Below are positions 23,385 to 25,400 of a DNA stretch of 64,000 nucleotides, in pieces. Each line of letters begins with the position of its first letter. Positions within the stretch are counted from its first letter, which is position 1. The stretch lies in NCBI GenBank assembly GCA_029688905.1, contig JARULB010000001.1, positions 62,001 through 126,000 of the forward strand. Direction: 5' to 3'. The position numbers and the translations under genes were made by a program. The stretch is from Balneolales bacterium ANBcel1 (lineage in GTDB: Bacteria; Bacteroidota; Rhodothermia; Balneolales; Natronogracilivirgulaceae). The notes under the pieces were generated by a model, which searched no databases, had not been told where the DNA came from, and saw nothing but the letters and a program-made list of their open reading frames with translations.

Positions 23385-23828
23385 GTGACGTATCAGGATC
23401 AACCATACTACAAGGAGTATCGTGATCTGCTCAAGGAGTTGTCCGGAGCGATTTCGACACTGAAAGCCGACAAAAAGCGCCTTGAAGAGGAGAACCGCGA
23501 TTTGACCGGTGAGCTGAGGGCCGTGCGTTCGGAGCTGACGGAAGCCACAAATCTGCTGGACTCGCTGAAATCGGAAAATGAACATCTGAAGACGGCATCT
23601 CCGCAAACCGTGGCTACGGAAAGGCAAGCAGAAGCCTCCGCCTCTGCGGATTTCTCCGGAAAAGGCACCGGAGTTGCGCAATCCCTTTCAGCCAGAGATG
23701 CAGGAAGTAACGAATCTCCTTCCCTGTTTTCAGATCTGGATGAGAATGAAAAAATTATCCTTCGCCAGCAAATCCATGATCTGATCAGCCGAATCGACCA
23801 CCATCTTGCCGGCTCCGGAAAAGCCTGA
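23385..23828 (+). CDS. Uncharacterised coiled-coil protein, possibly division-related
   Basis: I do not recognise this 147-residue protein by family. Residues about 15-70 form a strong heptad coiled coil (KADKKRLEEENRDLTGELR and onwards), followed by a serine/alanine-rich linker and a C-terminal helix (NEKIILRQQIHDLISRIDHH). It starts at GTG 23385; an ATG at 23371 opens only a five-codon frame whose TGA overlaps the GTG, which could couple translation. Lying between pheT and zapA and resembling ZapB-like short coiled coils, it may work with ZapA at the division ring. That role is inferred from context. Confidence 0.75.
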   Translation: MTYQDQPYYKEYRDLLKELSGAISTLKADKKRLEEENRDLTGELRAVRSELTEATNLLDSLKSENEHLKTASPQTVATERQAEASASADFSGKGTGVAQSLSARDAGSNESPSLFSDLDENEKIILRQQIHDLISRIDHHLAGSGKA

Positions 23829-23947: not shown

Positions 23948-24259
23948 ATGAAATCCATAAAAGTCTCCATACTGGGAAAAACGTATCCCCTCAAAATCAA
24001 CGAAGGTGATGAAGAGGCCATGCTCAATATCGCCTCCTATGTCGACAAGCGGTTCTATGATTTCCGCAAGGCGCTGATCAACCAGCCGGAATCCACCATC
24101 ATGGTGCTGGCGTCTCTCAGTATCGCCGAGGAACTCTTTCTCAAAAACAATGGAAACAGGCCGGATATAACCCCGGATGCCCCCAAAATCTTCGGAGAAA
24201 TTAATGAATCCCTGCGTGAGATTTTGGATGACATTGAGCAGGAAAATCGCGATATTTAA
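23948..24259 (+). CDS. zapA: Cell division protein ZapA
   Basis: The 103-residue protein has the ZapA N-terminal strand pair (KSIKVSILGKTYPLKINEGDEEAML), the conserved IASYVDKRF segment and a C-terminal coiled coil ending DDIEQENRDI. ZapA cross-links FtsZ filaments at the Z-ring. The ATG at 23948 gives the family length; an earlier TTG at 23912 is unlikely. A probable 6S RNA follows directly, repeating the zapA-ssrS neighbourhood known from gammaproteobacteria, and the RNA's -7 box overlaps the zapA stop codon. Confidence 0.9.
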   Translation: MKSIKVSILGKTYPLKINEGDEEAMLNIASYVDKRFYDFRKALINQPESTIMVLASLSIAEELFLKNNGNRPDITPDAPKIFGEINESLREILDDIEQENRDI

Positions 24260-24264
24260 GTTGT
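24234..24264 (+). promoter_or_regulatory. Promoter of the 6S-like RNA
   Basis: TTG (24234-24236), a 20-nt spacer and TAAGTTGT (24257-24264) fit the Bacteroidota promoter pattern apart from the final two -7 bases. It places the transcription start near 24271, just before the closing stem of the RNA. The element lies inside the 3' end of zapA and includes its stop codon. Confidence 0.5.
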
Positions 24265-24270
24265 ATTGAG

Positions 24271-24461
24271 TTACAACGCTTTTGAGGCAGGGTTAACATA
24301 AACAAGCACAACACTCAAAAACAAGGGCGTTTAACTTCGTTCGGCAATGCCAGGCCTCACGTCACCTCGCGTGAATAGTGGAAGGCAGACCCGATCGAGT
24401 GGATGCCCGCACTGTCATAGACGGTAGCTTGTCTTGTGCCTGCTTCATTAGCGTTTTTTTT
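24271..24461 (+). ncRNA. ssrS: Probable 6S RNA (ssrS-like) downstream of zapA
   Basis: No protein frame fits this 190-nt gap. Its ends pair: AACGCT (24275-24280) with AGCGTT (24450-24455), then after a 3x3 internal loop GAGGCAGG (24284-24291) with CCTGCTTC (24439-24446), and farther in CACAA (24307-24311) with TTGTG (24434-24438). Eight Ts (24454-24461) end the transcript. A long closing stem with an interrupted interior and a total of about 187 nt is the 6S RNA layout; 6S mimics an open promoter and binds housekeeping RNA polymerase. Linkage to zapA matches ssrS in gammaproteobacteria. The structure is read by eye, so identity needs a covariance-model search. Confidence 0.65.
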
Positions 24462-24584
24462 ATCCTTCTGCCCGCACTGTCGCCCGATTAATATTTGCCG
24501 CAGACATCCGGCCCCGCCTTGCCGGATGACGAACTGCACCAGACAGCGTGCATCAATCCAGACATAACCCAGGAAGGCTCACAC

Positions 24585-25400
24585 ATGTCGCAACCCGTAA
24601 AGGTTCTGTTCATCGGTGATATTGTCGGATCACCCGGCCTCTCCCTTCTGGAAACCCTGCTCCCCTCTCTCATCAGCAAATACGAAGCGCAGTTTGTCAT
24701 CGCCAATGCGGAGAACTCCCATGAGGGTATGGGAATAAACGAAGAAATCATCCGGACTCTGTACCGGCTGGGAGTTCATGTGATTACTGGTGGAAATCAC
24801 AGTTTTGCCAAGTGGAAGATCTATCCGTACATGAAAACGGACCCCCGGCTGCTGCGCCCCATGAACTATCCGAAGGGAGCGCACGGATACGGATTCGGCG
24901 TATACGACATACCTGATTCCGGTCACCGGATCGGAGTCGTAAACCTGCAGGGCCGAACCTATATGCAGCCGATCGATGATCCGTTTCGCGCCGGTGACTG
25001 GGTGCTCGAAAAAATCCGGCAGGAGACAAAAATGGTCTTCATCGACTTCCATGCCGAAGCTACAGCCGAAAAGATGGCCTTTGGGTGGTATATCGACGGG
25101 CGCGCCTCCGTAGTTGCCGGCACCCACACACACATACCGACCGCCGATGCACGGCTGCTGCCCAAAGGCACCGGTTATATTTCCGATGTGGGCATGACCG
25201 GCCCCTACCAGTCCGTTATCGGCATGGACAGAGACACGGCTGTCAAACGGTTCCTGCTCCAGACCCCCCACAAATACAAGATGGCCAACGGAGACAACCG
25301 GATCTGCGGCCTGTTTACAAAAATCGATCCCGAGAGCGGATCATGCATTCATATCGAGCCGATTATCTTTCCAGCATTTGAAACCGGAAAATCATCGTGA
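24585..25400 (+). CDS. YmdB/TIGR00282-family metallophosphoesterase
   Basis: The 271-residue cytoplasmic enzyme carries the dinuclear-metal motifs FIGDIVGSPG, NAENSHEGMGI, GGNHSF, VFIDFHAEATAEKMAF and AGTHTHIPTADARLLPKGTGY, which define the YmdB family (2',3'-cyclic nucleotide phosphodiesterase, modulating RNase Y and biofilm formation in Bacillus). The ATG at 24585 has AGGAAGG at 24571-24577, one of the better ribosome sites here. Its stop overlaps the GTG start of lolD by 4 nt (GTGA), indicating translational coupling of two functionally unrelated proteins. Confidence 0.92.
   Translation: MSQPVKVLFIGDIVGSPGLSLLETLLPSLISKYEAQFVIANAENSHEGMGINEEIIRTLYRLGVHVITGGNHSFAKWKIYPYMKTDPRLLRPMNYPKGAHGYGFGVYDIPDSGHRIGVVNLQGRTYMQPIDDPFRAGDWVLEKIRQETKMVFIDFHAEATAEKMAFGWYIDGRASVVAGTHTHIPTADARLLPKGTGYISDVGMTGPYQSVIGMDRDTAVKRFLLQTPHKYKMANGDNRICGLFTKIDPESGSCIHIEPIIFPAFETGKSS

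Follow-up and report, generated by a model that had tools for sequence, protein, structure and literature searches.

We found that the gap directly downstream of zapA in the window, by which we mean the whole 64,000-nucleotide stretch analysed here from the 3.3 Mb genome of Balneolales bacterium ANBcel1, encodes a 6S RNA (ssrS), a reading well supported at the level of sequence. 6S RNA elsewhere in bacteria is a small RNA that mimics an open promoter and blocks RNA polymerase; this global regulator is regarded as near-universal in bacteria, and rapid sequence drift hides copies of it from standard models. We assign the window RNA to 6S because homologues in the same gap match the Rfam 6S family RF00013, because the RNA shows covariation and because it is linked to zapA. 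It is very probable that an ssrS gene lies here whose product acts as an open-promoter mimic, restraining the housekeeping holoenzyme until released by pRNA synthesis. The kind of RNA is itself known; this one is a divergent, unannotated member from an uncultured Balneolales branch that Rfam 15 does not recognise. A literature search for 6S RNA together with Balneola returned nothing; the survey by Wehner et al. 2014, which reportedly covers 6S across bacteria, lay outside the scope of that search, and an earlier listing is possible.

A structured RNA gene between zapA and ymdB

The gap between zapA and the downstream TIGR00282/YmdB gene (ymdB) measures 325 nt, and the RNA starts 16 nt 3' of the zapA stop. 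The features, all on the + strand, are as follows.

23948..24259, +, zapA, the upstream neighbour (Pfam ZapA, E 6.5e-16)
24228..24256, +, possible sigma-70-like promoter, ATGACA-17 nt-GATATT (9/12 matches; weak)
24257-24259, +, zapA stop codon TAA (sequence)
24276..24461, +, 6S RNA gene (ssrS), ~186 nt, T run at the end included (model R1 plus homology chain; putative 5' end)
24275-24280, +, AACGCT, pairing with AGCGTT at 24450-24455
24276..24291, +, closing stem P1, 5' strand, pairing with 24439-24454 (fold; arm-swap test)
24284-24291, +, GAGGCAGG, pairing with CCTGCTTC at 24439-24446
24297..24307, +, helix P2, 5' strand, bubble-proximal (downstream) (fold; consensus fold of 11 family copies)
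24308..24324, +, central bubble, open 5' side, 17 nt (fold)
24325..24408, +, terminal (apical) arm (21 consensus pairs, 13 changed on both sides, 25 order-wide sequences)
24411..24425, +, 3'-bubble hairpin (fold; also found as a stem-loop in the terminator scan)
24427..24438, +, helix P2, 3' strand (fold)
24439..24454, +, closing stem P1, 3' strand (fold; arm-swap test)
24454..24461, +, 8-T run after the closing stem (sequence)
24585..25400, +, TIGR00282/YmdB-family phosphoesterase gene, the downstream neighbour (TIGR00282, 278.1 bits against a cut-off of 254.15; Pfam YmdB, 1.2e-99)

The initial annotation of this DNA had described a non-coding gap with these stems, an interrupted interior and eight terminal Ts, and we found every one of these elements in place, coordinates included. 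The non-coding character was likewise borne out, with no reading frame kept among copies from the genome's own family (f1): there was no conserved ORF, and across five f1 copies no frame opening with ATG exceeded 37 codons, the longest one changing frame from copy to copy. Folding gave z = -5.64 for 24271-24461, with none of 200 shuffles equally good, and z = -4.92 for 24276-24458 on the + strand versus -2.59 on the reverse strand. Single and consensus folds alike produced a rod of the size expected of 6S (~160-200 nt), with a closing stem, a large open 5' bubble and a terminal arm, and this anatomy fits the canonical 6S layout as published (PMC8414754, PMC8876501), in which a hairpin lies opposite the 5' bubble (PMC8414754). 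The 8-T run is likely an intrinsic terminator; a standard terminator scan returned nothing besides the small 3'-bubble hairpin.

The promoter and the exact RNA ends given here are putative. The proposal that the RNA has its own promoter overlapping the zapA stop held in part: a promoter-like site is present there, but it is a chance-level match and as a promoter unproven, a scan of 501 bases having turned up one such site where chance predicts 0.5. Its conservation within f1 is uninformative because GATATT doubles in these close relatives as Asp-Ile codons of zapA. Copies from the sister family f4 mostly carry TATATT 12-15 nt 5' of the RNA, as judged by eye.

Conservation directly after zapA in Balneolales

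A DNA search for the RNA region across 97 relatives gave matches in 24 genomes, and those in 17 of the 20 f1 genomes (own genome counted) and in five f4 genomes were genuine. Two BLAST places (L023 and L024, in genomes G023 and G072) were rejected as chance, there being no zapA near either; the true G023 copy is L097. Another f1 genome, G007, was not found by the DNA search and also has a copy (L066), and the zapA profile matched neither of the remaining f1 genomes, G008 and G015. With family f3, the Balneolaceae, set aside, the RNA followed zapA in all 33 zapA-matched genomes of the order (18 in f1, 10 in f4, 4 in f5 and 1 in f2), with the gene in G011 divided between two contig ends (L015, L025). 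Between the window and eight close family copies, nucleotide identity was 90-96% for the RNA, 66-74% for zapA and 73-78% for ymdB, and the most distant f1 copies retained 74% (L017) and 69% (L066) RNA identity to the window.

The closest named relatives in the zapA profile search were MAGs labelled Balneolales or Balneolaceae, whose isolate names presumably point to soda-lake sediment. One contig filed under a Syntrophomonadaceae MAG (L186, SLHT01000165.1) bears a Balneolales zapA-6S locus and was probably mis-binned.

Homology to 6S families

Scanning with the Rfam 6S models gave a divided answer to the Infernal check that had been proposed: the window copy stayed unmatched, whereas homologous gaps in relatives matched RF00013 over its full length. 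In the window copy there was no relevant match even at E <= 10 across 24000-24700, and the whole genome yielded no match to RF00013 or to the 6S-Flavo model RF01685, the latter not even at E <= 10. Among eight loci scanned, three sister-family copies matched RF00013 from position 1 to 187 (L018, E 0.0077; L020, E 0.11; L019, E 3.1) and the other five had no 6S match; L189 and L201 matched at E 0.012 and 0.027. Across 117 genomes of the class, RF00013 matched six at E <= 0.1, all six directly after zapA, and none passed its cut-off. That Rfam misses the window copy reflects the sensitivity of the models and not the biology of the RNA.

We then relied on models built from the copies themselves. 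R1 was built from alignment A2 (MAFFT, 25 copies from three families) and recovered a single match in the window (24276-24458, 188.8 bits), as expected by construction; it matched 17 of the 117 class genomes, and apart from the eight in its training set the other nine all carried the match directly after zapA. The class-wide model R2, trained on 26 copies selected for their position after zapA, reached E <= 0.1 in 26 of 37 zapA-downstream loci from the class outside the order, 11 of the 26 being from its own training set. Over 148 Bacteroidota genomes it matched 82, at one place each, 66 of them outside the class, while RF01685 matched 17 of the same sample. R2 also matched six of the 17 6S-Flavo loci in place, four of them at E < 0.05, and one locus found by R2, L255, exceeded the RF00013 gathering threshold in the same place (47.1 against 46.4); the other 19 of the 20 loci in that scan matched nothing in Rfam at E <= 0.01. 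The 66 genomes outside the class fall in families where RF01685 finds none, and R2 and RF01685 seem to pick up different families of the phylum.

Linkage to zapA like that of ssrS, which had been noted for the window alone, proved to be the usual arrangement among the Bacteroidota loci that we checked. All 23 R2 loci examined (18 outside the class, and L255 among the 23) had a co-oriented zapA-profile ORF immediately upstream, and zapA was directly upstream of 16 of the 17 6S-Flavo matches as well as of the six RF00013 matches in the class. Homology establishes the gene's identity, and these comparisons also establish that the locus is conserved.

Covariation of the stems

The covarying stem pairs sought in relatives were found in both the terminal arm and the closing stem. 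In the terminal arm of A2, 13 of 21 pairs showed two-sided compensatory change, and none of 500 shuffles reached the observed counts; 97.3% of cells were paired versus 85.2% in shuffled alignments, with again no shuffle of 500 as high, the number of pair types was equalled by 7 of 500, and shifting the partner strand out of register by one to three columns left 57% or less paired. The closing stem differs entirely in sequence between families, and in an arm-swap test the 5' arm paired better with its own 3' arm than with any arm from another lineage in 25 of 25 cases, L097 leading by just 0.1 kcal/mol. Own arms also beat 100 shuffles in 24 of 25 copies, the failure being L098. Covariation of this kind establishes the RNA structure at the sequence level and, along with the RF00013 matches of relatives and the above-threshold score of L255, supports the 6S-like reading of the initial annotation. 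Locus and covariation together recover 6S in a class whose sampled genomes all fall short of the Rfam cut-off.

Alternative explanations and known systems

A chance, functionless hairpin in the zapA 3' UTR might be suspected from a start so close to the zapA stop, but the RNA is better conserved than both neighbouring genes, carries compensatory changes and occurs at one place per genome, and we regard this explanation as practically negligible. The RNA might instead be a cis-acting leader of ymdB, a riboswitch or attenuator ending in a terminator, as would suit its place ahead of a co-oriented ymdB in the Balneolales carriers and the T run at its end. Against this, the downstream gene varies while the RNA stays, with rny following it in a 6S-Flavo locus and in family f7; ymdB of the Balneolaceae manages without the RNA; and the RNA matches Rfam 6S models. 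A leader function is therefore very unlikely.

Slightly less likely still is a separate structured RNA class that resembles 6S in shape alone, for example a relative of Ms1, the actinobacterial RNA that is structurally related to 6S and binds core polymerase (PMC9130861). The window copy has no Rfam match and shape by itself is no proof, so such a class deserves mention, but there is homology in both sequence and structure to members of RF00013 and RF01685, at the same locus and in one case above the RF00013 cut-off. The Rfam scan of the window gave no Ms1 homology, and locus and homology favour 6S.

Compared with known systems, the 6S RNA of the window resembles 6S/SsrS (RF00013) in length and layout, in the full-length model matches of its sister-family copies and in its position after zapA, as described for beta- and gamma-proteobacteria (PMC7641849). 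It differs in that the window copy falls below any reporting level and in having ymdB downstream rather than ygfA or a gene for an EVE-domain protein. With 6S-Flavo (RF01685) it shares the post-zapA locus and the in-place R2 matches at six of 17 loci; the differences are that RF01685 is a 108-position core model with no match in the window genome, and that the single 6S-Flavo locus read (L026) is followed by rny. In Bacteroides thetaiotaomicron, of the same phylum in the GTDB sense, 6S and two pRNA classes have been seen by dRNA-seq (PMC7366714), which is evidence of 6S acting with pRNAs in Bacteroidota; that RNA is validated by dRNA-seq, whereas the Balneolales copy is known from sequence alone.

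Predicted pRNA and proposed release

Polymerase binding, pRNA synthesis, release, a growth-phase role and expression itself are attributed to the window RNA by analogy with known 6S RNAs. The transcript would fold into a rod whose open central bubble mimics a melted promoter, and would bind the housekeeping-sigma form of RNA polymerase, restraining the enzyme as growth slows. Once nucleotides return, the polymerase would start at C24312 and use the bubble's 5' side as template for a short product RNA; this synthesis would unwind P2, the 3'-bubble hairpin would grow and the polymerase would be freed.

The pRNA start is predicted at C24312, beside A24313, giving 5'-GUUGUGCUUG... (in longer form 5'-GUUGUGCUUGUUUAUG), with a predicted template that runs on into the P2 5' strand at 24297..24307. 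Known 6S RNAs have a highly conserved adenine adjoining the pRNA start (PMC8414754), and in a class-wide alignment fitted to the model (A6) the adenine beside the C24312 column was kept in all 23 scorable rows, three of the 26 rows being gapped at the start column. The first base of the predicted pRNA was G (13) or A (10) across that alignment. Known pRNAs also carry a conserved GG at positions 4/5 or 5/6 (PMC8414754); this is present in several class members and absent from the predicted window pRNA, an absence that speaks mildly against the exact start.

Two release types are known, a Bacillus-like one with the hairpin already present and that of E. coli with a new hairpin (PMC8876501). Blocking 14 template bases in silico opened P2 and added two pairs to the 3'-bubble hairpin of the window copy, which pre-exists and grows in the Bacillus-like manner. 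Of ten sequences treated in this way, L019 and L020 formed a new 3'-bubble hairpin, as for E. coli, and L001, L005 and L065 extended theirs; the other five were not clear-cut.

Apparent absence in Balneolaceae and variation of the neighbourhood

The RNA is not universal in the order, as the Balneolaceae, which make up most of it, seem to be without 6S RNA, either by loss or by extreme divergence. Of the 38 f3 loci measured, 33 had a zapA-to-ymdB spacing of -9 to 81 nt, and the other five (372-752 nt) gave no model match. R2 matched none of 42 f3 zapA-downstream loci, the named genera Balneola, Gracilimonas and Fodinibius being among the negatives (examples without 6S after zapA are L068-L094 and L101-L114). 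Over 39 whole f3 genomes nothing convincing appeared with R2 (only E 0.46 and 0.94) or RF01685 (one match, E 0.098), and RF00013 gave none at E <= 1. With carriers at hand in the same order, this apparent absence offers a comparative test of what follows when a lineage lacks 6S. We offer as a tentative scenario, which we rate somewhat short of an even chance, that 6S was already paired with zapA in the ancestor of Bacteroidota and Proteobacteria, that most Bacteroidota have a zapA-linked 6S invisible to Rfam and that the Balneolaceae lost theirs; if true, the family would amount to a natural 6S knock-out, beside carriers in its own order, for a regulator that is otherwise near-universal.

A coiled-coil ORF lies directly 5' of zapA at 23385-23828, is conserved within f1 and gave only sub-cut-off coiled-coil matches in Pfam. 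The proteobacterial gene order is zapB-zapA-6S, and by analogy this ORF could be a ZapB-like partner. In family f7 (L274-L276) the R2 match lies upstream of RNase Y (named from sequence by eye) and not beside zapA, which is on another contig, and in the 6S-Flavo locus L026 RNase Y (rny) also follows the RNA. The genes adjoining 6S in these loci are, repeatedly, those for RNase Y or YmdB.
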